From a virus, in IMG/VR virus record IMGVR_UViG_3300044701_000292, positions 1 through 26,245 of that record: DNA of 26,245 bases. The stretch is one strand, 5' to 3'. A program made the position numbers and the translations under genes. Positions within the stretch are counted from its first letter, which is position 1. Each line of letters starts with the position of its first letter. This document shows positions 1 to 25,392 of the stretch, piece by piece. The notes under the pieces were generated by a model. That model worked only from the letters and a program-made list of their open reading frames with translations, was not told where the DNA came from and did not search any database.

Positions 1-1560
1 ACCAGTTTCAACACTACTTGAGAATGTAGCAGCACCAGTAGAAGCTATTGTAAGTAAAGCAGTTTGAGCAGATGCACCTGTTTGCTTTCTAAATACAAAT
101 CCACCACCTACAGTATTCCATATATCTAATTCACTATTGCTATTTGAGAAGTTAGTTCCTATTGCTCCAAAATAAGTATTGTAAGCCGGATAAGCACCCG
201 CACTATTATATTGGAATCCCGTATATGCTCCTTGTGAAACTACTCCCGCACTAAACGTAGCACTTGTACCACTTAAAGCACCAGTAAGCGTACCACCAGA
301 TAAAGGTAGATAAGCACCTAAATCACTTGTCAATGCTAAAGTACCTGAAGCATTTTGAAAAGTAAATGTTCTATTAGATGTTAATGTTGTAGTATTTAAA
401 ATAATAAAACCAGAAGGATTACCAAAATTTATACATAAACTATTATTTAAAGCAAATAATGAAGTATAACCAGTACCTGAATATCCTGCACTTGCATATT
501 GTTTAAATTCTAATGGAACACCACTTGAACCATTATCCATAACAATACCATTAGAAAATGTTTTTACTCCTGCTATTGTTTGACTTGATGTTGTAACAAA
601 ACCTTGTAATGTAGCACTTGCTGCTTGTGAGCTAATTACACCTGTTGTACTATTATAAAATATAGGACTTGTCGCACTTAAAGCTGCTAAAGTAATATAA
701 GTACTTGCATCAACCGAACCATCTGCCTTTAAGAATTGGCTTGATGTACCTCCGCTTTTTACTAAAGTAGTTGCGTTTAATGTACCTATTATAGTTGCAG
801 CGTTACCACTACCACTTGTTTTGTTTATATATAACCCTTCGTTATTACCACCCTTTGTTATGTTTAAAGCTATTCCACTACCGCTTGAATGATTAATAGC
901 AAAAGTATCACTACCTCCGCTTGATGCAAAAGAACCTGTTGCACCTGTAATAACATCAGCAGTCAAATCAAATGTTCCTAAGTCAACATTAGCAGTTGCA
1001 CCTGTGTATGGCACCTTAGCATTTAAAGCATTTTGTAAATCTGTTTGATTGCTAAGCGTTCCTGTGATTGCACCCCATACTGCATTGTTTGCAGCTATTT
1101 CAACATAAATAGAACCTGTCCATCTATAAACCTTATTGTTATCTAAAGTAATATATATTTTACCCGTTTCGCCTGTTACAGGTAAAGCTGCAAAGTTAGC
1201 AACCTCGACAACGTCATCAACATAAGATGGTAATTGTATTGAAGGCACTTTGCCATCACCGCCTAAAGTAGCTACTCCATTAGCAGCACCAAAAGGAACG
1301 GAACTAATTACACCACTATCGCTTTTTAAAACTCCTGTTGCTAATCCTGTAATTGTCAAACCGCCAATAGCTATTGGATTAGTTGTAGTTGCTCCATTAT
1401 CTGTAACGCCTTGTAAATCTGCGCCTGTGCCTATTGTAGCTGATAATTGTAGTAAGGTAATTTTTCTACTTACTCCTGTAATAGGATCGCCTATAATTGT
1501 TAAATCAGATCCCGTAGGCGTCATCTCTGTCGCTAACTGATTAATTTTTTTTGATTCCAT
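1..1560 (-). CDS. Tail fibre protein, 3' end cut off by window
   Basis: Probable host-recognition tail fibre. The frame is open from ATG at 1560 to the window edge, giving 520 residues with no stop. It is rich in Gly, Ser, Thr and Ala and built of low-complexity beta-type repeats. Typical fibre phrases are visible: VDDVVEVANFAALP (about 114-127), followed by GKIYITLDNNKVYRWTG; FLKADGSVDASTY (about 277-289); QTIAGVKTFSNG (about 327-338); and PLSGGTLTGALSGT (about 419-432). These recur in fibres of Bacteroidota phages, often ahead of a C-terminal S74-type chaperone domain, which would lie outside the window and is not seen. The start overlaps the stop of the upstream gene as TAATG. Receptor binding is inferred from composition and position. 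Confidence 0.85.
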   Translation of the reverse strand, partial: MESKKINQLATEMTPTGSDLTIIGDPITGVSRKITLLQLSATIGTGADLQGVTDNGATTTNPIAIGGLTITGLATGVLKSDSGVISSVPFGAANGVATLGGDGKVPSIQLPSYVDDVVEVANFAALPVTGETGKIYITLDNNKVYRWTGSIYVEIAANNAVWGAITGTLSNQTDLQNALNAKVPYTGATANVDLGTFDLTADVITGATGSFASSGGSDTFAINHSSGSGIALNITKGGNNEGLYINKTSGSGNAATIIGTLNATTLVKSGGTSSQFLKADGSVDASTYITLAALSATSPIFYNSTTGVISSQAASATLQGFVTTSSQTIAGVKTFSNGIVMDNGSSGVPLEFKQYASAGYSGTGYTSLFALNNSLCINFGNPSGFIILNTTTLTSNRTFTFQNASGTLALTSDLGAYLPLSGGTLTGALSGTSATFSAGVVSQGAYTGFQYNSAGAYPAYNTYFGAIGTNFSNSNSELDIWNTVGGGFVFRKQTGASAQTALLTIASTGAATFSSSVETG

Positions 1561-2009
1561 TAATAAGTATAATTTGTAGGCACCTGGCACCTGTTGTTTA
1601 TAAATGGTAAATTCAAAGTAATATCACACTTGACGCCTGCTAAAAAATCAGGATCAGATTCCGTGAAATACGTCATTGGAATATTATCCCCGCAAGTCCA
1701 AGTAACTACCCCATAATCCATTGGGTATCTTAACTGCGCAATAAAATCCTGTGCTACCAATGTTTGATCCGATAAAACTTCTGTTTCGTTTGTTTCCTCT
1801 GATAGCATCCTATCCATAAAGTAAAAACTAAAATTGAAATTTATTTCTTTAGCACCTATTGTAGCACCTGTTAACGTAAAAAACATAGCAGGATAAGTAA
1901 CCTCTGCATTGCTTAAACGTTCCCAGACATCCCCAAAGTAAACAAAATTAATTTGTTCGTGGTCGTTTCCTATCTTTGTCAGTTCGCTGACAATCTGATT
2001 CAAAGTCAT
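1560..2009 (-). CDS. Probable neck or tail-completion protein
   Basis: A 149-aa soluble protein with no signal peptide or membrane segment. It resembles a family found in Bacteroidota phages next to connector and fibre genes: an N-terminal helix (LNQIVSELTKIG), a stretch about a strand-rich YPAMFFTL, a middle segment ETEVLSDQTLVAQDFIAQL, and a C-terminal strand region with the phrase DFLAGVKCDITLNLPF. The pattern is compatible with small head-tail joining proteins, but no catalytic motif is visible and the function is inferred from place alone. It lies between the homing endonuclease gene and the fibre gene and shares a TAATG junction with the fibre. Confidence 0.7.
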   Translation of the reverse strand: MTLNQIVSELTKIGNDHEQINFVYFGDVWERLSNAEVTYPAMFFTLTGATIGAKEINFNFSFYFMDRMLSEETNETEVLSDQTLVAQDFIAQLRYPMDYGVVTWTCGDNIPMTYFTESDPDFLAGVKCDITLNLPFINNRCQVPTNYTY

Positions 2010-2010
2010 A

Positions 2011-2580
2011 TTAAGCGTAAATTAAAGGTGTATTATTTTTATTTTTTCCAATAAGTTTCATACTTAAAGCAGTTCTTTTTAATCCTAAAGCGTCAGCCGC
2101 TTCTTTTATACAGGAATAAAAAATTCCAACTTGAGTATTTAATATAACTTTTGCCATTGGGTGATCGCCATTTTTATATTTATCTTTTCTTGCTTCGCTA
2201 AATTTCTTTAACGTTTCGGGTTTATATTTTCTATTTTTGCCAATAATTGAAAACTTTTCCCTTAATTCTTTTGAATAAAAAGCCGGTTTGTCTTCATTTT
2301 TTGGTAAAACTAAATTCAATCCACCAAAATCAGCAGAACTTTTAAACAAATCCCCAAATTCTCTTTCTTTATTTAATCTTTCTTCGGGTTGACATTCACA
2401 TAAAACTTCAAAAGAATGATTTATAAAGCCATATTTTTCAAAAGACCTAAACAATAAAACTTGTTTTTTAGCATGACCATTTTGATAAAATTTATATCGT
2501 GCTTCTAAATCAATAGAAGAACCAACATAAACCCTGTTATTTGGTGATACAATTTTATATACTCCGCACTTTTTTATCAT
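2011..2580 (-). CDS. GIY-YIG homing endonuclease
   Basis: A free-standing 189-aa homing nuclease of the GIY-YIG class, like T4 Seg proteins. The catalytic module starts near the N-terminus with GVYKI (6-10) and VYVGSS (17-22), followed by Arg28, a Glu in the EERLNKERE helix (about 67-75) and FGGLNL (85-90). The C-terminal region has basic helices (about 118-137) and a NUMOD-like DNA-contact segment VILNTQVGIFYSCIKEAADA (145-164). The start at 2580 was chosen because GIY-YIG proteins begin just before the first strand; an in-frame ATG at 2610 would add ten basic residues and overlap the upstream gene further. It appears to be an insertion in the virion operon, since its neighbours are structural. 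Confidence 0.85.
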   Translation of the reverse strand: MIKKCGVYKIVSPNNRVYVGSSIDLEARYKFYQNGHAKKQVLLFRSFEKYGFINHSFEVLCECQPEERLNKEREFGDLFKSSADFGGLNLVLPKNEDKPAFYSKELREKFSIIGKNRKYKPETLKKFSEARKDKYKNGDHPMAKVILNTQVGIFYSCIKEAADALGLKRTALSMKLIGKNKNNTPLIYA

Positions 2581-2677
2581 TACTTTTTTCTTTGACAGGT
2601 TTAATGTCATTCTTTTTTGCTTTTTCCAAATAAACCTTTAGCTTATTTTGGTTTTTTATAGTTACTTGTTTACTCAT
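2555..2677 (-). CDS. Small lysine-rich protein (40 aa)
   Basis: A 40-aa, strongly basic protein (MSKQVTIKNQNK...) rich in Lys and Asn. It begins one base after the connector stop codon and ends inside the start of the endonuclease gene, a 26-nt overlap in another frame. The same frame is open further upstream to 2764, but that part would lie inside the connector gene, so the ATG at 2677 is preferred. No domain is recognised. Its C-terminus may have been altered when the endonuclease gene arrived. Confidence 0.6.
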   Translation of the reverse strand: MSKQVTIKNQNKLKVYLEKAKKNDIKPVKEKSNDKKVRSI

Positions 2678-2678
2678 A

Positions 2679-3272
2679 TTAGCAGCATCCAATATTACCT
2701 TGATACCTTTCCTCGAATGTTTTTCTATGCTTGCCGTCATAATCATCAATACAACAAGCATCACCTAAATACATTGAAACTGTATATCCTTCATTATCAG
2801 GCTTGATTGAATCAATACCACTACCAAAGTTTAAATAATTAGGATATAAAGCATTGTTTTGTTTTAGGTATTTAATTAATCTTTGCTTGTAAAATTCTGC
2901 TCTTGCCTTGTATCTATTAGCCACATCAATCATATCCTGCATTGAAGGGTTTTCCTGATTCTCACCTGACTTTCTTAAAAGCCCTTTGTTATAAAACTGA
3001 AACGATAACCCTTGTGGTAATTCAGACATTACAAAATAAATCAATGTATCTACAATGTAATCATCCAATAAGGTCGTTTGTAAATTTGTATATGTGTTTG
3101 TATCAACTGCCGTCTGTAATTCATTGTAAAGTGCAGATCCCAATGCAGGCAAAATATACATATCTTGCGCCGTCTTGATTTCAGGCAATACTAATTTTTC
3201 ATCTACGTTTGCGTGCAATCCTGTTCTGTCCTTAATTGACTGAACTGATATAAATAAAGTATTCTTGCTCAT
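2679..3272 (-). CDS. Head-tail connector-like protein
   Basis: A 197-aa protein following the portal, probably an adaptor on the portal ring. It has the pattern of a Bacteroidota phage family placed there: an N-terminal block with VQSIKDRTGLHANVDEKL, then LPEIKTAQDMYILPALGSAL (about 30-49), a helix TLLDDYIVDTLIYFVMSELP, an NKGLLRKSGENQ block and a helix ending in YKQRLIKYL. The start MSKNT at 3272 gives a TAATG overlap with the portal stop; an upstream ATG at 3317 would overlap the portal by 46 nt and is less likely. The tail is Cys-rich (DACCIDD and a terminal IGCC), which is unusual for a virion protein. Function is inferred from family pattern and position. Confidence 0.75.
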   Translation of the reverse strand: MSKNTLFISVQSIKDRTGLHANVDEKLVLPEIKTAQDMYILPALGSALYNELQTAVDTNTYTNLQTTLLDDYIVDTLIYFVMSELPQGLSFQFYNKGLLRKSGENQENPSMQDMIDVANRYKARAEFYKQRLIKYLKQNNALYPNYLNFGSGIDSIKPDNEGYTVSMYLGDACCIDDYDGKHRKTFEERYQGNIGCC

Positions 3273-5071
3273 TATTTTTTTCTTGTTACTATGTTTGAAA
3301 CCCATTGATGTCTGCAACTTGGCTCGTGGTCATTAGTACCTGGCTTTGTGTACCAACCGCCCTTACGATCCCATACCGAATAACCTAATCTTGCACTCAT
3401 TAACTCTATTTCGCTACGGCTATAAACCTTGTTTGCTTCTAATAAAGCCACGCAAAATGGACGGCTTGTATCCTTATCTGCATTGCTAAACCCTGCTTTC
3501 CATTCATAAGAATATCTAATTAGCAACTCCGTTGTCTGTGGCTTAATTTTTTCTATAATATCCTTTAATGGCTCTGTCAAGGTATGTTCTGTAATCACAT
3601 TTTCATCAATCCCTGTACCTATTGTGTATTGCTTAGGTTGGATATGCCCATCATCAATCAATTTTTTAATCACTTGATTGATAGTATCCACGTTTTGATC
3701 TAAGGTAGTCGCCAATACTTGCGGCGTTATTCTTTTATCCTTAGCCATTAAATCAAGCACATTGGCTTGTAATTGGTTTACCTCTGCAAATAACTGATAT
3801 TCAGAATCGTCGTTAAAGCGCGTTCTTGACTTCCAAATATTGTATGAAGCCTTATCCTCGCCAAACTCAAAAAACACGCTAAAATCGTCCTTAAATTGCG
3901 CAGATTGCACAACTGTAACCGCTTCCTCTGGTGCTTGGTATTTGCTCATGTCAATCCCCGCCTTTTCAAGTAACCATTCCTTAGGTGCAATTTCCTTTAA
4001 AAGATTCTCTGTAAACTCAAATCCGATAGGCTCGGTTGGGATAATATGTAGTTCTGCGTCCTCGATACCTCTGTACTTAAATAGCATATTAAATACACTT
4101 TCAAGGTGCATTTGCTTACTATTAACGTAAGTATTTTTAAATATTTCGTATCCGTCGCGCATTTCTGAACGGCTGCCTAATTTACCAGCCTCTGCAATAC
4201 CAAAGATTGATGGCGTTGTAATCTGATGCCCTGAAAATATATTAGTTTGAATTAAAGAATCCACACGACCGAAATCCTCTTTTGTTATATCAGAAGTGCC
4301 TAAATCATCAACGATAGGTTTTCTTGCGCTATCATTTACAAAAGCTAAAATGAACTTCTTGCCATCTGATCCGCTAAATCTATTCGTGAAGCGTTTTTCA
4401 ATATTACGCTTTTCATCATCCGAAGGCTCGCCATTAGGCAGGGTAATAAGTTTACTTGCAGAAAACCCTGTCTGTGCATTACCTAAAACGTGCTTAGATA
4501 TTTCAATATCTGATTCTATGTAATTAAGCGCACCGAAATAACCTGGTAAAGAATAGTAACCCATATTTGGGCGATATTCTTTTATGTAAAGAATCTGCTT
4601 GCCGTATGGATTAGCAGGGTTAAAAGCAGTATAAACCTCCGCTTTTTCTGCCCTATCAGCCCAATCTTCTTTATACCAAAATTGTGTATTGTCTTTATTA
4701 GTACGAATCTTAGTGTAATCGCAATGCCAGATTTCGCTTAACTGACCTGCAACTGACCAAATGATTTCTAAATAATAACCTCCAAATAATTCAGCATCCA
4801 AAGATACTTTTCTTGTAAGATCCTCAAGGCTTTCCATTCTATTGACTTGCTCAATAAAAGGCTTTGCCTGCTCGCTTCCTGTCCAACCATTTGCAGTAAT
4901 ATAATGTACCTTGCTTTTTATAATAGCATTATGCTTAGCTGACTTATTAAAAAGTTCAACTAAGTAATTTGGGTAATCGTTGCGATCGCCATATTGAATA
5001 TACCCTTCACCTTTCTTTTCTTTAAATTCAGGCTGCTTGGCTTCCGCAAATGTTAGTACTCTTAAATCCAT
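3272..5071 (-). CDS. Portal protein with extended C-terminus
   Basis: The portal forms the dodecameric ring through which DNA enters the capsid. This 599-aa protein has a phage-portal-like core (about 25-375): IQYGDRNDYPNYLVELF (25-41), an internal region describing helices and the wing, and SGHQITTPSIFGIAEAG (280-296), the usual stretch of this group. The C-terminus carries two extra parts. One, about 436-478, looks like a winged-helix DNA-binding segment (ITPQVLATTLDQNVDTINQV followed by IKKLIDDGHI). The other, 517-599, ends in GGWYTKPGTNDHEPSCRHQW. It lies downstream of the capsid gene rather than next to terminase. Portal assignment is by similarity of pattern; the meaning of the C-terminal parts is unknown. 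Confidence 0.8.
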   Translation of the reverse strand: MDLRVLTFAEAKQPEFKEKKGEGYIQYGDRNDYPNYLVELFNKSAKHNAIIKSKVHYITANGWTGSEQAKPFIEQVNRMESLEDLTRKVSLDAELFGGYYLEIIWSVAGQLSEIWHCDYTKIRTNKDNTQFWYKEDWADRAEKAEVYTAFNPANPYGKQILYIKEYRPNMGYYSLPGYFGALNYIESDIEISKHVLGNAQTGFSASKLITLPNGEPSDDEKRNIEKRFTNRFSGSDGKKFILAFVNDSARKPIVDDLGTSDITKEDFGRVDSLIQTNIFSGHQITTPSIFGIAEAGKLGSRSEMRDGYEIFKNTYVNSKQMHLESVFNMLFKYRGIEDAELHIIPTEPIGFEFTENLLKEIAPKEWLLEKAGIDMSKYQAPEEAVTVVQSAQFKDDFSVFFEFGEDKASYNIWKSRTRFNDDSEYQLFAEVNQLQANVLDLMAKDKRITPQVLATTLDQNVDTINQVIKKLIDDGHIQPKQYTIGTGIDENVITEHTLTEPLKDIIEKIKPQTTELLIRYSYEWKAGFSNADKDTSRPFCVALLEANKVYSRSEIELMSARLGYSVWDRKGGWYTKPGTNDHEPSCRHQWVSNIVTRKK

Positions 5072-5445
5072 TATTGTCTTATTTTATAAGTGTCCGTTGT
5101 AGTATATTCCGTGAAATTGAAAGGCGTTCCGACTAACTCCATAATCCCTGATTCTAATAAATTTAAACCCGAAGGATTTAGGTTAGATGTACTTGTCTGT
5201 TCGTATATATCGTAATCATATTGACCATTTAAAGCAGTACTAAAATTAGTATTTGTAACAATACTAAACTCATTGTATCTGTCCTTAAATTGGCTTATAT
5301 CTGTGTTATTTAACATAACAAATTTAACCTCTGTATTTGCGCTTCTATTAGTAAATACAAATAAATAGTTAGGATTCGTTAATAGTTGCTTTTCAGTTAA
5401 AGTCAAAATAATATTTTGGGTTTGTCCTTTTGTTAACCTAATCAT
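5071..5445 (-). CDS. Conserved phage virion-associated protein, function unknown
   Basis: A 124-aa, beta-rich protein of a type I associate with Bacteroidota phages: it opens with IRLTKGQTQNIILTLTEKQ, continues with NPNYLFVFTNR, RYNEFSIV and GQYDYDIYEQ, and has LLESGIMELV near the end. No enzyme motif, signal peptide or membrane helix is seen. It begins a new block after the terminator at 5490-5521 and a leader of about 45 nt that contains an AT-rich motif at 5448-5464. Its stop overlaps the portal start as TAATG, so it is probably co-translated with the portal. A structural role is inferred. Confidence 0.7.
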   Translation of the reverse strand: MIRLTKGQTQNIILTLTEKQLLTNPNYLFVFTNRSANTEVKFVMLNNTDISQFKDRYNEFSIVTNTNFSTALNGQYDYDIYEQTSTSNLNPSGLNLLESGIMELVGTPFNFTEYTTTDTYKIRQ

Positions 5446-5447
5446 AC

Positions 5448-5464
5448 TACTATATAGCTAAAAA
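5448..5464 (-). promoter_or_regulatory. AT-rich leader motif, candidate late promoter
   Basis: On the minus strand this reads TTTTTAGCTATATAGTA, ending 2 nt before the start codon at 5445 and lying just after a terminator. It matches the motif before the scaffold gene (7706-7722) at 15 of 17 positions and has a palindromic CTATATAG core. It could be a promoter element for the phage sigma-like factor or a translation signal; neither is shown. Confidence 0.35.
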
Positions 5465-5489
5465 GCTAATTTGTTGCATATCCTACAAT

Positions 5490-5521
5490 AAAAAACCGCC
5501 GAACCAATTAAGGAACGGCGG
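5490..5521 (-). terminator. Rho-independent terminator after the 173-aa gene
   Basis: On the minus strand, CCGCCG pairs with CGGCGG (six perfect GC pairs) around a 14-nt loop region that can add two more CC/GG pairs, followed directly by six T. It lies 26 nt past the stop of the 173-aa gene and is a textbook intrinsic terminator. Confidence 0.85.
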
Positions 5522-5546
5522 CAAACCTATAAACCTATGAAAAAAC

Positions 5547-6068
5547 TTAAGCTCCTGCTGTTGTCAATACAGAATAAACTGCTTGTGCAACGCTTGGTGC
5601 TAATTCTGCTTCTGATCCTGTAAAGGTTAAAGTGAATCCACTTCTATCGCCTTGTGTAGTACCCGTGCCAGCAGTACCAGCAGTTAAATCTAATCCTCTT
5701 GTTTTACCAAGATACCAATATACGCCATTTGAATCTTTTACTACTGCGATCAAAGTGTTTTGAGCAAGTAATAAAATTTCGTTTCTTGTAGCGGTTTGTA
5801 ATTTATTTAATACAACCATTAGTTCCTGTGCATAAAATACTGTTCCATTCTGTACGTTTGTAGTGATTGTTTGATTCATCATTGATGTATCTTTCACTTG
5901 CTCGTATTTGTAGAACTTCTTACCAGATGCCTTTGTCAATGAAGTAATTACCCCACTCGCTTCGGTTGTAGCAGTTACGTTAGCCGCTTCTATGAAATAT
6001 ACTTCCGTAACACCGCCTAAACTATCTCGGCAGTCTAAAGTATATCCTTGTGTTAATGCACAACTCAT
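5547..6068 (-). CDS. Probable major tail (tube) or decoration protein
   Basis: A 173-aa protein with a conserved opening (MSCALTQGYTLDCRDSLGG) known to me from Bacteroidota phage structural operons. The rest is Ala/Thr/Gly rich with strands, including VFYAQELMVVLNKLQTATRN and VYWYLGKTRGLDLTAG, and ends in a hydrophobic, Ala-rich tail. Lying alone between two terminators just after the capsid gene suggests high, separately set expression, as expected for a tail tube or capsid decoration protein. I favour tail tube because of its size and strand content; a decoration or head-completion role is the main alternative. Confidence 0.6.
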   Translation of the reverse strand: MSCALTQGYTLDCRDSLGGVTEVYFIEAANVTATTEASGVITSLTKASGKKFYKYEQVKDTSMMNQTITTNVQNGTVFYAQELMVVLNKLQTATRNEILLLAQNTLIAVVKDSNGVYWYLGKTRGLDLTAGTAGTGTTQGDRSGFTLTFTGSEAELAPSVAQAVYSVLTTAGA

Positions 6069-6092
6069 TGTTAATTAATTTAATATTTTATT

Positions 6093-6119
6093 AAAAATGG
6101 GGAGCGGTTAAACTCCCCA
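6093..6119 (-). terminator. Rho-independent terminator after the capsid gene
   Basis: Minus strand: TGGGGAG and CTCCCCA form a seven-pair stem around the loop TTTAACCG, followed by a T-rich tail (TTTTT at 6097-6093). It starts 4 nt past the major capsid stop codon and may partly limit read-through into the next gene. Confidence 0.8.
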
Positions 6120-6123
6120 ATAA

Positions 6124-7077
6124 TTATGCTAAGATAAACTTAACGATCTCGTCTGGGAACGCTACGTTTACACCCATTTTGAACTCAGATACGAAACGAA
6201 CTTGATCAGCTTCTTTTGCGTAGAAGATTTCAAATTTTTCCTCTTCGTTCAACAAGTCTGTACCTAAGAACAAGTTAGATAAACGCATTGCGTAAACCTT
6301 GTTAGTTCCGTTCAAACCTGCAAGTGCTACAACTTTGATCATAGTACCTGGTAATACGAACTCGCTATCAGCTTTCACATCAATTGAATAATGGAATTGA
6401 TTTGCGTTCTTTAATGCAACTGTGTAAGTTCTGAAAACATCTTGACCACAGAAGATAGTCATATCTTCAGCAGCTACAACTTGTGCAGGGATTGCTTGAT
6501 AAACACCATCAAAAATACTGATTACGTTATCAGCAGTGATTGAGCTTAAAGGCGCACCTGAAATGTATGTAGAGCTATTAGCAGCTACAACACCAGAAGC
6601 AGCACCGATTAACTTAACAAGTCCGTCAAATCTTGATAGATTAGCGTTACCTGAAGTTGTATCACCTTGCCATAAAGCAACCTCTAATTGAGCAGCAATT
6701 GTTTTTGCTTTCTTATCTGCAAATTCTTGCTCAAAAGGAATAGAATCATACATTGATCCTGTTGGTAATGCTTTTTGTAAGTACTTAGATTCTAAGTCTT
6801 TAGGACATAGAGCTTCGTTTACTTTAATTTTTCCAACTGTTACTGTTCTTTGAGTAAAAGTTGTAGAACCAGATGCGGTAAATCCGCAAGATCCACCTGC
6901 TTGGAAGATCGCGTCTGTGTCCATAATGTTGATAGTTTCTGCGCTTTTTACGCCTACCATTACGTTACCTGCGCTCTTAATTAAAGCTGCAGTCTTTGCA
7001 CCTAATACAGAATCAGTTACCAATAAGGCTTCGTTTTGCTCTGTATAAGCGGCTAATGCGTCTACGTTAAATCCCAT
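6124..7077 (-). CDS. Major capsid protein
   Basis: A 317-aa protein read as the HK97-fold major capsid protein. Visible features fit that fold: an N-terminal arm (FNVDALAAYTEQNEALLVTD), the segment TFTQRTVTVGKIKVNEALCP leading into a backbone helix with FEQEFADKKAKTIAAQLEVA (about 114-133), the phrase LWQGDTTSG, a central domain, and a C-terminal strand block (EIFYAKEADQVRFVSEFKMG). It follows the scaffold gene by 5 nt and precedes its own terminator, the usual setting for the most abundant virion protein. Only the general fold, not the exact family, can be called by eye. Confidence 0.85.
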   Translation of the reverse strand: MGFNVDALAAYTEQNEALLVTDSVLGAKTAALIKSAGNVMVGVKSAETINIMDTDAIFQAGGSCGFTASGSTTFTQRTVTVGKIKVNEALCPKDLESKYLQKALPTGSMYDSIPFEQEFADKKAKTIAAQLEVALWQGDTTSGNANLSRFDGLVKLIGAASGVVAANSSTYISGAPLSSITADNVISIFDGVYQAIPAQVVAAEDMTIFCGQDVFRTYTVALKNANQFHYSIDVKADSEFVLPGTMIKVVALAGLNGTNKVYAMRLSNLFLGTDLLNEEEKFEIFYAKEADQVRFVSEFKMGVNVAFPDEIVKFILA

Positions 7078-16469: not shown

Positions 16470-17621
16470 CTAAGCAAAGGCGTAACGCCCTGATCCCCTT
16501 TTATAGTTAAAGTTCTGCCAAGCTAAAGCCAATGCCATAACGCAATCGTCGTGGAATCCCGAAGGCGCAGAATAGCGTACCCCGTTAGCCGTAAACTGAT
16601 ATTCAAATATATCTAATTCGTCAACAATAACTCCTTCTGGATAGCTTATCTTGCCCTGTTGTATTGCCTGTGCCAAGCCCTCCATTAGTTGCTGCTTTGA
16701 TTGACTTGTAAACTTTAAACCTTCTATATTTATTCCTTCTCTTTTTAAGTCCTCAAGGATAGGATCACCTACACCCGTGCTATCTGCTAATATAGGCGCA
16801 ATAGGAAGCCTTCTTATTGTTTCCTTAGTATTATGCCAATCCATTTGAAAGCGGTCAAAATAAGCCACATTGCCGCTACTATCAAGCCCTATGATAACAG
16901 TGAAGTCAACTGACTTAGCAAGGTCAATTCCATAAGCTACGATTTGCTGACTTGATATAGGACGAATGCAGTTTTTTATATAGGCGTTCCCAAAAGGGTT
17001 GGCACTATTCTCGGAAGGGTTTGCAAGGTATTCCTGCTCAAATACAACCTCTGGCAACTGCAATCGTGCCTCGTCTATTTCCCTTGTGTTAATATAAGGA
17101 TTATCGTATGTACTAAATTTAAAAGACTGCCAATCATTCTCGCCTTGTTTCATAAACATAGAGTAGAAAAAGTTCTTACCTCTTGGCGTAGATAGGAATA
17201 CAGCCTTACCTTGATAATCGGTTAAGGTTGGGCGTATGCTATTCTGCCATCCTGATTCTAAGTCAGGGATAAATGCTGCCTCGTCTATGATAACTAAATG
17301 AAACTTGCGACCTCTTAAATTGTCTAATCGTTCCCCTGTATAAAATTCAATTGATCCATTATTAGGGCAATAGATTTTAAGGTTGCTGATATTGTTTTTA
17401 AATGGTAGTGCTGCGGTTAACCTTTCAAAGAATGTTTTAGCTAATTTATAGGTAGGTGTAATATAAGCAACCTGCCCTCCTTTAATTGATTCACTAATTG
17501 ATAGTATCTGCGATAGTTCTGATTTACCGAAACGACGTCCGCACATAACCACAATAAAACGCTTGTCGCATTCTAATATCTTCTTTTGGTTTATATGCGG
17601 ATTGGGTAATTCTATGCGCAT
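16470..17621 (-). CDS. terL: Terminase large subunit
   Basis: ATP-driven DNA packaging motor and nuclease, 383 aa. The ATPase half shows Walker A MCGRRFGKS (26-34), Walker B LVIIDEA (109-115) and coupling motif STPRG (144-148). The RNase H-like nuclease half shows the acidic residues Asp233 (YGIDLAKS), Asp280 (LADSTGVGD) and the pair Asp358/359 (GFHDDC). The protein is complete but on the short side for a large terminase. The start overlaps the stop of the small subunit as TAATG, so the two are coupled. A 167-nt gap with a promoter follows. Confidence 0.95.
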   Translation of the reverse strand: MRIELPNPHINQKKILECDKRFIVVMCGRRFGKSELSQILSISESIKGGQVAYITPTYKLAKTFFERLTAALPFKNNISNLKIYCPNNGSIEFYTGERLDNLRGRKFHLVIIDEAAFIPDLESGWQNSIRPTLTDYQGKAVFLSTPRGKNFFYSMFMKQGENDWQSFKFSTYDNPYINTREIDEARLQLPEVVFEQEYLANPSENSANPFGNAYIKNCIRPISSQQIVAYGIDLAKSVDFTVIIGLDSSGNVAYFDRFQMDWHNTKETIRRLPIAPILADSTGVGDPILEDLKREGINIEGLKFTSQSKQQLMEGLAQAIQQGKISYPEGVIVDELDIFEYQFTANGVRYSAPSGFHDDCVMALALAWQNFNYKRGSGRYAFA

Positions 17622-19103: not shown

Positions 19104-19226
19104 TTATCTACCTTGTTTTACATATTTCTTAGTAGGTTTGTCTTTTGGACCAAATCTCTTTTTGTATTTACCGCATTTCCTTTTACCAAAATTAACCTTT
19201 TTTGAATCACTTTTAACCTTTGCCAT
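19104..19226 (-). CDS. Small basic protein, 40 aa
   Basis: A 40-aa protein with about 15 Lys/Arg (MAKVKSDSKKVNFGKRKCGK followed by YKKRFGPKDKPTKKYVKQGR). Short FGKRK-type proteins ending in GQGR or KQGR are familiar from Bacteroidota phages, with no known function; nucleic acid binding is likely from charge. It overlaps the HNH gene by 14 nt and ends 9 nt before the methyltransferase start. Confidence 0.75.
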   Translation of the reverse strand: MAKVKSDSKKVNFGKRKCGKYKKRFGPKDKPTKKYVKQGR

Positions 19227-19470
19227 TGATTTTTTTATTATGTATGTCTTTTAAATAATCATAATGCGTCTTTGTATCCCCCATTACAACGTGGCATTGT
19301 CTACATAATGCCTGTAAGTTTTCTATCGTGTCCGCGTTTTTAGATCCTCCCATTCCCCTTGCATCTATATGATGTATGTCCACTGCTTTAGATCCACAAG
19401 CCTCACAAGGTATAAAGTCCTCTATTCCGTAACCGAAATAATCAAGATATATTTTAACGTGCTTTTTCAT
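19213..19470 (-). CDS. HNH endonuclease
   Basis: An 85-aa nuclease with the beta-beta-alpha-metal fold: zinc ligands CEAC (22-25) and CRQC (56-59), catalytic HH in VDIHHIDARG (33-34), the helper Asn in IENLQALC (51), and closing His60. An upstream in-frame ATG at 19485 adds five residues; the ATG at 19470 gives the shorter overlap (17 nt) with the previous gene and is preferred. HNH proteins near terminase often take part in packaging as a nicking partner of TerL (as in HK97 gp74); a free homing nuclease is the alternative. Confidence 0.85.
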   Translation of the reverse strand: MKKHVKIYLDYFGYGIEDFIPCEACGSKAVDIHHIDARGMGGSKNADTIENLQALCRQCHVVMGDTKTHYDYLKDIHNKKINGKG

Positions 19471-19879
19471 TATCGATTTGTTCAAGTTTCTTTTGCGCCC
19501 AAGCTACACCCTCGTCGCCTCCCCAAGCTAACCACATTAAAGCACCGCAATCATTTTTAGGATCACCCTTGCTGTTTTCTCTGTGCCTTTCAAAACTTGC
19601 CATTCTTGCTATCGTGTCCCTTGTAATGTTTTCACCTTTAGCTAATTGATTAGCACGCGCCCAACCAACAGGCGTTCCACATTTACGATTATATTGATCC
19701 CTTATATTTATTGCTCTTTGCGCGTTTACTCTTGCGGCTTGTGGGTAGTCATTGTAACTATCTGCCATTGATACACGAATCGCAGCCCATACGCTTTGCG
19801 CTTTTTCCTCTGTATCGTATATACAAGCACCTGATCCTATTCTATATTTTCCGTTTGATTGGCATTTAATTACTGGCAT
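19454..19879 (-). CDS. Conserved phage protein with RMASF...WGGDEG motif
   Basis: A 141-aa protein of a recurrent phage family. It begins MPVIKCQSNGKYRIGSGACI (a short cysteine-containing strand motif), followed by an Ala/Asn/Arg-rich helix and then the conserved core: VGWARANQLAKGENITRDTI (71-90), RMASFERHR (92-100) and LMWLAWGGDEGVAWAQKKL (114-132). I know the core as a separate domain found alone or attached to phage head proteins such as prohead proteases, of no established function. Position before the packaging genes fits a head or packaging role. The name is by pattern only. Confidence 0.65.
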   Translation of the reverse strand: MPVIKCQSNGKYRIGSGACIYDTEEKAQSVWAAIRVSMADSYNDYPQAARVNAQRAINIRDQYNRKCGTPVGWARANQLAKGENITRDTIARMASFERHRENSKGDPKNDCGALMWLAWGGDEGVAWAQKKLEQIDNEKAR

Positions 19880-20873
19880 TTCCTATTAGTTTATTATAAA
19901 TAGCAAACCTTTGCTTATTTACTTCGTGCAGATTAAAGTGCTTATTACAATACTCGTAAAGGTCATTCCCGTACTGCTTACGCGCTGCTTGATCGTGGGT
20001 TAATAGTTTTATCCAATAATACCAATCCTTTTGACTATTGACGTGGCAAGCAGGATAAAAGCCCTTATAAGGGTGTACGTTGCTTACAATAGCAGGGTTT
20101 TTCTTTGATGCTGTTTCTAATACCTTTAAATTAGATTTCATTGAATTAAACTTAGAATCTACTAAAGGGATAAGACTAATATCAGAATCACAATAAGCTG
20201 CCATATATTCCGTTACAGGATTATAGTTATAAATCGTGGGCTTTAGTTTTAACCCGTTAGTAAAAGCACAAATCATATTATCCCAAATATGTTTTTCAGC
20301 TTCATTATACCCCGCTATGATTGTTCGTACAGGGAAATTTATGCGCTTCATTGGGTTGCGAAGTATTTCCAAGTCCTTGCCGTGTGTTCCTGATCCTGAC
20401 CAAAACAACCTTACAAGATCCGATGGCTTTTTTTCTAATACAAATTGTTCCTCGCCGTATGGTATTGCGTTAGGTAATATTTCTACGTTTGTATTGTGCT
20501 TATATATTTCTTGTGCTAACCTATCATGCGTACAAGTACAAAGATCTGCTATCTGTACCCAATTGATAATCTGTTCTGAAATCTGATTTAAAATATAATG
20601 CTGATATAGTATGTGCGAAGGATCAAGCTGCCAATGATCGTCATTGTCAACTACTAATTTAAAGCCATACTTTTTGCGCCATTCAATCATTTGCTCTGGC
20701 GTTATATTAGCAAGCATCCTATTAATAACCACAATATCAAAATTCCCCTCAAATACTTCCTCGCTTATTGTATCTGTAATCAAGCAATAATCTTTTTTCA
20801 TATTAACCAAAGGCATCATTATCCTATGATAACCCACGCCGCTTTGCTTACTTGTTATTGCTAAAATTCGCAT
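19866..20873 (-). CDS. Glycosyltransferase, GT4-like (GT-B fold)
   Basis: A 335-aa sugar transferase. The N-terminal half starts with a Rossmann strand (MRILAITSKQSGVGYHRIMM); the C-terminal half has the donor-site pattern LPNAIP (133-138), RLFWSGSGTHGKDLEIL (155-171), DISLIPL (231-237) and SMKSNLKVLETASKKNPAIV (244-263), which includes the usual Glu of GT4 enzymes. Retaining transfer from a nucleotide sugar is expected; donor and acceptor are unknown. It overlaps the GT2 gene by 13 nt. It may decorate virion proteins, modify host surface glycans or modify DNA. Confidence 0.85.
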   Translation of the reverse strand: MRILAITSKQSGVGYHRIMMPLVNMKKDYCLITDTISEEVFEGNFDIVVINRMLANITPEQMIEWRKKYGFKLVVDNDDHWQLDPSHILYQHYILNQISEQIINWVQIADLCTCTHDRLAQEIYKHNTNVEILPNAIPYGEEQFVLEKKPSDLVRLFWSGSGTHGKDLEILRNPMKRINFPVRTIIAGYNEAEKHIWDNMICAFTNGLKLKPTIYNYNPVTEYMAAYCDSDISLIPLVDSKFNSMKSNLKVLETASKKNPAIVSNVHPYKGFYPACHVNSQKDWYYWIKLLTHDQAARKQYGNDLYEYCNKHFNLHEVNKQRFAIYNKLIGNASN

Positions 20874-21535
20874 CTAAGTTTTTTTTCTGTATGATATATA
20901 GGTTGGTATTTTTCCCAAACCGCTTGCGCTCTTTGTAGGCTTGCGTCCTTCATAGCCCTGTAATCTGTGCCATTCCCAACGTCGTGTCCGATATGCTCGC
21001 TTCTTAATTCTGGAATATAATAATTAGTAAATCCTGCAATCGTAGCCCTTTCTGCATAATCCCTATCTTGCATTCCGTATGGATCGTATTCGGTATTGTA
21101 TCCTCCAATCGTGTCAATCAATTCCCTCGTAATAAAATTATTTCCAAATGGGGTATGTGTCTTATGTATTCCGTCCTGTAATGGCGGCAATTCCTCAACG
21201 CAATGTATACCAATAATGCCTGTTTTTGACACACGTTGCGCAAACATAACCCAATTTGACAACCAATTGGTAGGTAATAGTATATCGTTTGCCAAAATAC
21301 AAACGCCATCATATCCTCTGGTCATTCTTAGTCCTGCATTTACTCCCGCGCCTATGCCTCTTTTATTTGCCACATTGCAATTAGTCCAATCGTATAAATC
21401 ATAGGGTATTTGATCGCTTCCATTGTCTACTAAAAAGCAATCAGCATCATATCCAGAATTAAAAAAATTCTGATCTATAACCCTCTTTGTTAAATCGTTT
21501 CTATTTAGGGTTAATAAGATTACGGCTATATTCAT
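20861..21535 (-). CDS. Glycosyltransferase family 2
   Basis: A 224-aa GT-A-fold transferase: N-terminal strand NIAVILLTLNRNDLTKRVID (2-21), FLVDNGSD (34-41), KRGIGAGVNAGLRM (58-71), and the metal-site region CILANDILLP (79-88) in which a single Asp replaces the classical DXD. A later GMQDRDYAERATIAGF (154-169) corresponds to the ED-type base motif. The protein is complete but short for GT2. It overlaps the acyltransferase by 35 nt and the GT4-like gene by 13 nt, so all three are coupled. Confidence 0.88.
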   Translation of the reverse strand: MNIAVILLTLNRNDLTKRVIDQNFFNSGYDADCFLVDNGSDQIPYDLYDWTNCNVANKRGIGAGVNAGLRMTRGYDGVCILANDILLPTNWLSNWVMFAQRVSKTGIIGIHCVEELPPLQDGIHKTHTPFGNNFITRELIDTIGGYNTEYDPYGMQDRDYAERATIAGFTNYYIPELRSEHIGHDVGNGTDYRAMKDASLQRAQAVWEKYQPIYHTEKKLRCEF

Positions 21536-22004
21536 TTGTTCCTAATTTTCTTGCAGGCACACCCGCGTATTTACTAAATTCCTCTGTTGATCCTTTTATA
21601 AAAGCACTTGCGCCAATCATACAACCGCGTTCAATAATTGTAAACTGATGCAATACCGCGTTTAACCCAATGTTTGAATATTCTTTAATAATTGTATGTC
21701 CTCCTATTTTAGCACCGCAGCTTATTGTAACATTATCCCAAATATGGCAATCGTGTCCGATATGTGCGTGCTTCATTATAAAACAATTATTCCCGATAAT
21801 AGTCGGATCTATTGTACCCGCATCAATAGTAATTAAGCCTGTAATCATATTCCCATTTCCAATGATTACCTTACCTTTCGGCTGTCCCCAATATTTTTTA
21901 TGTTCTGCTTGATCGCCTATAATACAATAAGCCCCAATATAATTGTTATCACCTAATTCAACATTATCGCCTATGATTGCCGTTGGATGTATAAAATTTG
22001 CCAT
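21501..22004 (-). CDS. LpxA-like hexapeptide-repeat acyltransferase
   Basis: A left-handed beta-helix acyltransferase of 167 aa from MANFIHP. An ATG five codons upstream would overlap the previous gene by 14 nt, so 22004 is used. The hexapeptide pattern runs from IHPTAIIGDNVELGDN to the C-terminus. It follows LpxA closely around the active site: AHIGHD (E. coli His122/His125; here His81 and His84), the GGH triad (His103 for His144) and LHQF (His119 for His160). It lacks the C-terminal helical domain of true LpxA (about 260 aa). Substrate may be a nucleotide sugar or a glycan. NeuD/PglD- or GlmU-like enzymes are the alternatives. Confidence 0.85.
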   Translation of the reverse strand: MANFIHPTAIIGDNVELGDNNYIGAYCIIGDQAEHKKYWGQPKGKVIIGNGNMITGLITIDAGTIDPTIIGNNCFIMKHAHIGHDCHIWDNVTISCGAKIGGHTIIKEYSNIGLNAVLHQFTIIERGCMIGASAFIKGSTEEFSKYAGVPARKLGTNEYSRNLINPK

Positions 22005-22005
22005 A

Positions 22006-22227
22006 TTATTGTGTTTCAAACCATTGATATAATCGCATTACCATTTCAAACTTACAAGATCCACACCATACTGATACAATGAAATTAGGATCTAAATAAC
22101 TCCTATATATATGTTCGTACATTTTTAAGTCATCTAAGTCAAGATTTCTTATATATCCGTTTTTAGCACATTCATAATTGCCTATGTTAGCGGTAAGCCA
22201 TTCCCTATGCTCTTGTTTTATTTCCAT
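22006..22227 (-). CDS. Small protein with WCGSC motif
   Basis: A 73-aa soluble protein, or 76 aa from an upstream ATG at 22236. It begins MEIKQEHREWLTANIGNYEC, has an acidic middle (DLDDLKMYEHIYRSYLDP) and ends VSVWCGSCKFEMVMRLYQWF plus three residues. The CxxC could bind zinc or be redox-active. I have seen this WCGSC form in Bacteroidota phages but know no function. The start overlaps the previous gene by 10 nt, the stop lies 1 nt before the acyltransferase. Confidence 0.65.
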   Translation of the reverse strand: MEIKQEHREWLTANIGNYECAKNGYIRNLDLDDLKMYEHIYRSYLDPNFIVSVWCGSCKFEMVMRLYQWFETQ

Positions 22228-22457
22228 AAAGACCATATTAGTTTTGTTATAATTGGGGCTAAGAATCCTGATATAAACATTGTACTTGTAATATTCTGGA
22301 TTAATTCAGGCAGGAAATAGTGTATTGGCGCAAGCCACGCAGCCAAGCAACTTCCACAATTAAAGGGCTTGTAATTGATTCCCCATTTATGGTGTAGGTT
22401 ATGAATCTCAGTAAAAAATAATGATGCACAGATAGCAGTTATAATTGATAAAATCAT
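22218..22457 (-). CDS. Small membrane protein with CGSC motif
   Basis: A 79-aa protein with an N-terminal hydrophobic segment (1-17), a loop with FNCGSCLAAW (32-41) and one or two further hydrophobic segments (about 39-50 and 57-77). The Cys pair beside a membrane helix recalls DUF1360-like proteins. Linked by ATGA to the sigma gene stop. Function unknown; a holin role cannot be excluded. Confidence 0.65.
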   Translation of the reverse strand: MILSIITAICASLFFTEIHNLHHKWGINYKPFNCGSCLAAWLAPIHYFLPELIQNITSTMFISGFLAPIITKLIWSLWK

Positions 22458-22939
22458 TTTCTAATATTTGTTTTCATTTGTTTTTTGGTTTTATTTATCG
22501 TGCGTATAATTGACATATATGGTATGCCCGTTTTACGGCTTAATTCTTTAGCATTCTTTTTAAAGTCAATAGCATATAGTTTTAAAATTTCTTTGTTATA
22601 CCAATGTAAGCCTTCCATATTTGCTTCTAACTTTTCAAACATACTTTTATCGTAATCATCTGAAACAAAATCCTGATCCACAAACTCCGTGTAGTTTCTG
22701 TAATTTTTATAAAAAGTACTTCGGTCGCTTTTAATCATATTAAGCATAATCCTAACAATATAAAATTTTAACTCATTCCTTTCAAATAATCCTACCAACT
22801 TATCATCTTCCATTTCGCAAAGAACTAAAAAAACTTCTGCCTTTAAATCATAGCGCAGTTCCTCTGGATGCATTTTATCAAATGCGTCGTTAACTTCTTT
22901 TAAAGTCCAATATTGTTCTAAAATTTCATTTTTGACCAT
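22454..22939 (-). CDS. Sigma-70-like transcription factor
   Basis: A 161-aa protein with the two blocks of a minimal sigma factor. Residues about 28-82 resemble region 2: LRYDLKAEVFLVLCEMEDDK, then LKFYIVRIMLNMIKSDRSTF (57-76), containing the core-binding and -10-contact helices. Residues about 112-156 resemble region 4, with HWYNKEILKLYAIDFKKNA and the helix-turn-helix KELSRKTGIPYMSIIRTINK (131-150). Similar proteins are common in phages of Bacteroidota. It probably guides host RNA polymerase to phage promoters. It overlaps the VRR-NUC gene by 22 nt. Confidence 0.75.
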   Translation of the reverse strand: MVKNEILEQYWTLKEVNDAFDKMHPEELRYDLKAEVFLVLCEMEDDKLVGLFERNELKFYIVRIMLNMIKSDRSTFYKNYRNYTEFVDQDFVSDDYDKSMFEKLEANMEGLHWYNKEILKLYAIDFKKNAKELSRKTGIPYMSIIRTINKTKKQMKTNIRK

Positions 22940-24969: not shown

Positions 24970-25392
24970 TTATTCTTTTACAAACTTACTAAAATTTTCA
25001 ATCTCTTTTTCAATTTCATCAACTTTTTCTTTATACCATTTTTCGGTAAACATTAGGTTTTCAGCCGTTTTTATGTTATAAATCACAGTTGTATGATCGC
25101 CAACCCCGATATGCTTTGCTATTTCGTTAAGGGATAATTGAGTATATTTTTTAAGAATATAAGCCGCCGCCTTGCGTCCAAATATAACGCTTTGCCTTCG
25201 GTTTTTTATCTGTATACTTGTATCAAATACGTCCTCAACTAATTCAACTAATCTATGCGGCAATATACTTGAAGGGACAGAACCAATTGCAATGTCATCT
25301 GTTATCAAATTAGCTTTTACTAATTCTTTATGAAACATGCGTAAACTTTGCAACTGATCTTTATAACATTGAATTAAATTGTTATACTCCAT
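24970..25392 (-). CDS. DnaA domain IV-like protein
   Basis: A 140-aa protein that resembles the DNA-binding domain (IV) of the replication initiator DnaA but has no AAA+ part. Domain IV spans about 45-120: a helix at 46-60, a basic loop with KNRRQSVIFGRKAAAYILKK (63-82), a helix with LSLNEIAKHIG, and the signature GVGDHTTVIY (96-105) typical of DnaA box recognition. A coiled-coil helix ends the protein. It lies beside the replication proteins, spaced by 2 nt from the gene before. It could bind DnaA boxes at the phage origin or compete with host DnaA. No perfect DnaA box was noticed in the window. Confidence 0.88.
   Translation of the reverse strand: MEYNNLIQCYKDQLQSLRMFHKELVKANLITDDIAIGSVPSSILPHRLVELVEDVFDTSIQIKNRRQSVIFGRKAAAYILKKYTQLSLNEIAKHIGVGDHTTVIYNIKTAENLMFTEKWYKEKVDEIEKEIENFSKFVKE

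Follow-up and report, generated by a model that had tools for sequence, protein, structure and literature searches.

What does a phage do with an acyltransferase that resembles LpxA and is encoded next to two glycosyltransferases? The question is raised by the IMG/VR virus record IMGVR_UViG_3300044701_000292, which we analysed over its whole length of 26,245 bases (the window). An earlier note, made from the letters alone, had described three overlapping genes at 19866-22004, and its coordinates proved exact, with all three genes on the minus strand: ACT, a 167-aa acyltransferase with a left-handed beta-helix (21501-22004); GT2, a 224-aa GT-A glycosyltransferase with the motifs VDNGSD, LAND and YGMQDRDY (20861-21535); and GT4, a 335-aa GT4-like glycosyltransferase of the GT-B fold (19866-20873). 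ACT and GT2 overlap by 35 nt and GT2 and GT4 by 13 nt. Our main new result is that ACT+GT2 is a discrete exchangeable unit, that GT4 is its constant partner, and that acetylating and methylating units are alternatives in this locus.

The exchange was read from relatives of the window found in IMG/VR. In the relative L097, whose terminase large subunit (TerL) and GT4 are 94% and 91% identical to those of the window, DNA homology (90.9%) extends up to window position 22014, 9 bases before the ACT start, and comes back at 20873, where the GT4 start codon begins. The flanks of the swapped block are 88-91% identical, and a glycosyltransferase-methyltransferase-glycosyltransferase (GT-MT-GT) cassette, at 2549-4372 of L097, stands in place of ACT+GT2. 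In a second relative, L219, homology breaks off and picks up again at these positions too, here separated by 4 nt, so that ACT+GT2 is cleanly missing, and its GT-MT-GT cassette lies further downstream. The unit that is swapped as a block in the former and missing in the latter spans 20874-22013 on the minus strand, with its breakpoints at the end of the upstream gene u76 and at the first GT4 base. Among the loci with full context, 118 carry ACT without the MT cassette and 10 carry the MT cassette without ACT; no locus has both, and one has neither. The MT loci were found with an MT query and the 118/10 ratio is therefore not a population frequency, but the zero overlap is unaffected. GT4 is retained in nearly every variant with full context, as are u76, a small conserved 76-aa protein directly upstream of ACT (22006-22236, minus) that is kept when ACT+GT2 is swapped, and TM79, a small hydrophobic and probably membrane protein upstream of u76 (22218-22457, minus). 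The GT-MT-GT cassette occurs in or near the ACT+GT2 slot in L097, L217 and L219-L235, and its MT shares about 30% identity with those of mycobacterial prophages, McProf among them.

We then asked how widespread and how well conserved the genes are. Our IMG/VR scans returned at least 352 relatives of ACT and large numbers of GT4 relatives; once duplicates were removed, 175 distinct ACT loci remained. The next recognised gene after ACT belongs to the GT2 family in 145 of 146 distinct phage loci, which lie on several unrelated TerL backbones. About 16 of these 145 loci carry a methyltransferase-like gene of ~196 aa between ACT and GT2 (for example at L216 4752-5342, L044 4654-5244 and L082 604-1194), an arrangement which implies that acylation and methylation are alternative or additive decorations. 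When the Pcryo_0615 sequence, introduced below, was used as query, 15 further phage loci were recovered; at least 8 of them keep the ACT-GT2 pair on other phage backbones, and two have a GT4 homologue just upstream. The median dN/dS was 0.105 for ACT, 0.078 for GT2 and 0.057 for GT4, next to 0.063 for TerL. ACT, GT2 and GT4 are thus real, intact genes under strong purifying selection comparable to that on TerL, and because of these low values and the recurrence in well over 100 distinct contigs the cassette is not a chance assembly. The coupling of sugar enzymes proposed in the earlier note is supported, and our literature searches found no description of an ACT-GT2-GT4 cassette. Two records, IMGVR_UViG_3300043436_001856 (63 kb) and IMGVR_UViG_3300002835_000289 (50 kb), contain two copies of the region each; in both cases the assembly has probably fused the genomes of two related phages.

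ACT had been described as a short LpxA-like enzyme without the C-terminal domain and so probably with another substrate than in lipid A synthesis, and its length and structure model bear out the missing domain: a single 7-residue helix follows the beta-helix where LpxA has a C-terminal helical domain, and the model aligns only to residues 36-40..208 of LpxA. ACT matched Pfam Hexapep at 5e-21, the NCBIfam LpxA models at 112-115 bits (cut-offs 226-231; E about 1e-33), and the NeuD/PglD profile at 1e-25 and 90 bits (cut-off 160.8), the latter from position 99 of 202 only. NeuD, PglD and VioB are, like ACT, hexapeptide sugar acetyltransferases, but they have an N-terminal sugar-binding domain of their own which ACT lacks. 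By sequence the nearest solved structure is PDB 8e62, Pcryo_0615 of Psychrobacter cryohalolentis, which its PDB title calls an N-acetyltransferase required to produce a diacetamido-2,3-dideoxy sugar. A profile built from 58 ACT homologues reached 8e62 at 1e-52 and the best LpxA at 2e-29. In the fold search the ACT model aligned to 8e62 over 164 residues (Z 19.0, 44% identity) and to LpxA with Z about 16-18; since rows that differ by less than 1 in Z count as tied, fold alone leaves the two unseparated, and it is the sequence profile and the tree that set ACT apart from LpxA. The tree, built on matched stretches, has two branches with 100/100 support each: one unites phage ACT with Pcryo_0615, and the other holds LpxA. 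ACT is therefore not LpxA, an identity we rejected on the missing C-terminal domain, the half curated score and the separate branch. The earlier note had held that grouping with a family of a different known role would count against its view of the enzyme; for LpxA that is in effect what the tree gave, the nearest characterised relative being a UDP-3-amino-sugar N-acetyltransferase. Sequence and tree grouping together suggest that ACT is a UDP-sugar N-acetyltransferase of the Pcryo_0615 type, a branch with one characterised member.

The active site points the same way. All four LpxA His positions said to be kept are indeed present, with H81, H84, H103 and H119 of ACT aligning with H122, H125, H144 and H160 of LpxA. 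Across the 58 ACT homologues H84, H119, Q120, E34, K36, D61 and N157 are invariant and H81 and H103 nearly so, and the seven invariant residues are all shared with Pcryo_0615. A fifth LpxA active-site His, H99 in Escherichia coli, is His or Asn in the aligned LpxA sequences but Asp in ACT (the invariant D61) and in Pcryo_0615. In LpxA, H125 is the general base, and N198 with the arginines that follow it binds the UDP part of the substrate. The counterpart of N198 in ACT is N157, in keeping with a UDP-sugar substrate. Measured against LpxA, then, ACT keeps the beta-helix and the positions of H122, H125, H144, H160, Q161 and N198, and differs in the C-terminal domain, the Asp and a short loop deletion as well as in score and branch. 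Against Pcryo_0615 (44-47% identity) it agrees in length class, fold, the D/H/Q/N residues and branch, which makes the latter its closest characterised homologue. The two differ in setting: Pcryo_0615 serves a cellular O-antigen pathway for 2,3-diacetamido-2,3-dideoxy-glucuronic acid with a dehydrogenase and an aminotransferase of its own, whereas the phages have neither of these and pair ACT with GT2 and GT4 genes.

Most sequences of the Pcryo_0615 branch found in this analysis are viral. We tried and rejected a cellular origin of ACT: in 296 genomes from the phylum of the host-like bin the best matches were only ordinary LpxA proteins of ~260 aa, and the sole genome_contigs match, DOMR01000068.1, sits in a Chitinophagaceae bin but is a phage contig of 32.9 kb. 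As for variation within ACT, an insert of 18-24 residues follows the conserved EHKKYW motif in L049, L055, L076 and L196. The 35-nt overlap at 21501-21535 places the final residues of the window-type ACT within the start of GT2, and in other lineages ACT ends with a 4-nt overlap; the additional residues may simply result from the overlap. At L183 525-1304, u76 and ACT read as one 259-aa frame, either a natural fusion or a frame change, which hints that the two are linked.

Both glycosyltransferase identities also stood. GT2 scored 24.5 bits against PF00535, above the cut-off of 23.3. GT4 remained below threshold with the Pfam Glycos_transf_1-type model (14.7 bits, cut-off 27), and it matched phrog_7162 'glycosyltransferase' at 2e-61; its model is a complete two-domain GT-B fold (pLDDT 91), and the nearest structures are of the GT4 type, BshA among them (Foldseek 8e-12; Z 25.9 over 307 residues). 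The locus occurs with three or more GT2 subtypes that are about 30% alike. Their link to the backbone is not strict, since L142 combines the distant GT2 with a window-like backbone, and L081 and L156 combine the window-like GT2 with the other backbone. GT4 seems broken in two places, as two adjoining frames at L100 930-1937 and by one in-frame stop in G006 (the record behind L230), which may reflect sequencing error or decay.

Which sugar do these enzymes handle, and where does it come from? We screened 37 phage records, or about 36 near-complete ones, and found neither a PF01041 aminotransferase nor a PF01408 GFO/IDH dehydrogenase, with positive controls; the nucleotide sugar must hence come from the host, and the earlier suggestion that the set also makes a sugar was not supported. 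The same records yielded no PF00303 thymidylate synthase/hydroxymethylase (controls positive) and no tyrosine (PF00589) or serine (PF00239) integrase or resolvase, on which ground lysogenic conversion was rejected. A search for PF12851 TET/JBP oxygenases had no match in the phages and was equally silent in all controls. The annotated genes of G004, a complete relative (34,733 bp, terminal repeat of 127 bp), include no integrase, sugar-synthesis or base-hydroxymethylation gene. A Shine-Dalgarno-like site precedes only 1 of 33 genes, and few such sites are usual for Bacteroidota. From this scarcity and the Chitinophagaceae binning the phages, lytic-looking, probably infect Bacteroidota. The binned contig, DOMR01000068.1 (L236), belongs to a phage of the window's group assigned to Chitinophagaceae bacterium UBA8137, as a binning contaminant or as a host hint.

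The predicted enzyme roles, acetylation of a sugar and two transfers, are well supported. We lean, by a narrow measure, towards a modular glycan-assembly locus whose enzymes acetylate a sugar and build it onto a protein of the phage virion. ACT would acetylate a host-made UDP-sugar, most likely of the UDP-GlcNAc type, with acetyl-CoA as donor and C3 as the position if the analogy with Pcryo_0615 holds, either by N-acetylation of a 3-amino group, as in that enzyme, or by O-acetylation of the 3-OH. GT2 would then transfer the acetylated sugar, and the GT4-like enzyme the shared and probably first or core sugar, in late infection just ahead of packaging, so that the product would decorate a virion protein. 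The acetyl-CoA donor, the C3 position, the order of transfer, the timing and the virion acceptor are all steps that we infer.

The virion has precedents as a target. Che8 and its relatives among the mycobacteriophages add glycans to the capsid and tail tube of their own particles (PMC12363180, PMC12619734), and Che8 gp110 is needed for capsid glycosylation (PMC12363180). In their glycosylation loci (Che8 gp108-110, Corndog gp38, McProf gp43-45) a run of GT (and MT) genes lies beside HNH and terminase genes, as here, and GT genes stand immediately upstream of HNH-terminase in the window and its relatives, in Che8 (GT108-GT109-GT110-hyp-HNH) and in McProf (GT-MT-hyp-hyp-HNH, then TerS-TerL). These loci differ in their actinobacterial hosts, and no ACT-type acyltransferase was seen in the stretches read. 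Two further phage loci share parts of the set. In the Phapecoctavirus GT cluster (gp102-105) one of four successive GT genes encodes a homologue of GT4 (about 32% identity over 97%), but the cluster has no ACT and belongs to large myoviruses of E. coli, and the Bacteroidota phage immuto of Flavobacterium combines a PglD-like acetyltransferase with GTs and an MT but has a full amino-sugar pathway with transaminases and an epimerase, and its acetyltransferase is only 27% identical to ACT. The earlier note had left virion, host surface and DNA side by side as targets; we favour the virion over the host surface, indirectly, because of the TerL-like conservation, the absence of lysogeny genes and of DNA precursor genes, and the position shared with Che8 and McProf.

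Several points weigh against this interpretation. GT2 and GT4 gave no significant match with Che8 gp108, gp109 or gp110 and no detectable homology to the McProf GTs, so that the resemblance is positional. Pcryo_0615 falls within the phage diversity (97/87) on a long branch and its exact place among the phage sequences is unsure, the pLDDT of the ACT model is only 64-79 around the catalytic coil, and the phages have no genes for 3-amino sugar synthesis, so that ACT may act on a different substrate than Pcryo_0615 does.

The serious rival is that the cassette alters a host surface polysaccharide (LPS, capsule or S-layer glycan) in the course of infection and thereby blocks re-adsorption or superinfection. 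Soluble GT2 and GT4 enzymes with hexapeptide acetyltransferases are typical of O-antigen loci, the membrane protein TM79 lies upstream in nearly every variant, phage-encoded O-acetyltransferases change the capsule in Acinetobacter (PMC6586298), and viral genes of a similar kind have received the annotation lpxA or LPS auxiliary gene and been read as surface modification (PMC9529941). We nonetheless judge it unlikely, as the 34.7-kb complete relative showed no flippase, polymerase or undecaprenyl-dependent membrane GT, the lack of integrases in the records screened excludes lysogenic conversion, and conservation at the level of TerL is more in keeping with a structural role than with an accessory trait for exclusion. 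Improbable by comparison is that the GTs glycosylate a modified base of the phage DNA and that ACT acetylates that sugar, as a guard against restriction and CRISPR. Phage DNA glycosyltransferases can add diverse glycans (Pyle et al. 2024, as cited in PMC12619734), the GT4 model also aligns with T4 AGT (Z 20.9), and a ParB-methyltransferase gene lies nearby in many members; yet AGT ranks well below the BshA-type GTs and is listed only as a GT-B fold, the ParB-methyltransferase gene is missing from many other members, and sugar-modified phages such as Thanatos carry the thymidylate synthase/hydroxymethylase gene (PMC12838424) that the records screened do not have. Least probable, and very improbable, is that ACT is a reduced LpxA which moves a fatty acyl chain from acyl-ACP to UDP-GlcNAc and so feeds or diverts lipid A synthesis, for the retained catalytic His, the three other active-site His and the profile matches are outweighed by the score, the lost domain, the Asp at the H99 site, the separate branch and the nearly constant pairing with GT2.

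The surroundings of the cassette agree in part with what had been described, a position between sigma factor and packaging genes. The packaging side is confirmed: GT4 overlaps by 14 nt a 141-aa phrog_2859-like protein (19454-19879), which is followed by an HNH endonuclease, the first gene of the packaging block (19213-19485), a ParB-methyltransferase, TerS and TerL (16470-17621), our backbone marker; the 141-aa, HNH and TerL genes are all on the minus strand. On the other side, upstream of u76, lie TM79, a 161-aa open reading frame (ORF) and a VRR nuclease, and the sigma factor label is weak: the ORF at 22454-22939 has no match in Pfam, and its PHROG match, to a family of unknown function, is only marginal. 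An ORF at 24970-25392 is DnaA-C-like. Elsewhere, a GIY-YIG homing-endonuclease-like gene lies in the structural region of the window (2011-2610) and is missing from G004. L102 carries MazG-like, dCMP-deaminase-like and thymidylate-synthase-like genes after TerL (4703-6826), an isolated insertion in this one relative, and L237 (G004) carries a PAPS-reductase/DUF3440, PD-(D/E)XK-like and ParB-like insert between methyltransferase and TerS (1468-4535).

Phage-encoded virion glycosylation is known experimentally mainly from mycobacteriophages; what is new here is the modular exchange of ACT+GT2 and the re-identified acetyltransferase, which, if correct, would amend the usual 'lpxA' or LPS auxiliary gene label of such genes. 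The ACT+GT2 unit is small and testable in vitro. A large group of freshwater phages carries a small conserved set that very probably builds an acetylated sugar chain, most likely as a coat on the phage's own particles, and the gene-precise swap for a methylating version in some relatives hints at interchangeable sugar coats in environmental viruses. More tentatively, and at somewhat less than even chances, we propose a serotype-like virion glycan locus in which a constant GT4 works with a swappable acetyl-sugar (ACT+GT2) or methyl-sugar (GT+MT+GT) unit. Such a locus would switch the sugar coat in an abundant group of freshwater phages, and it would also have spread to Bacteroidota phages unrelated to them. 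If true, an exchangeable acetylating or methylating unit in hundreds of uncultured phages would suggest that sugar-coat variation is widespread among environmental phages.

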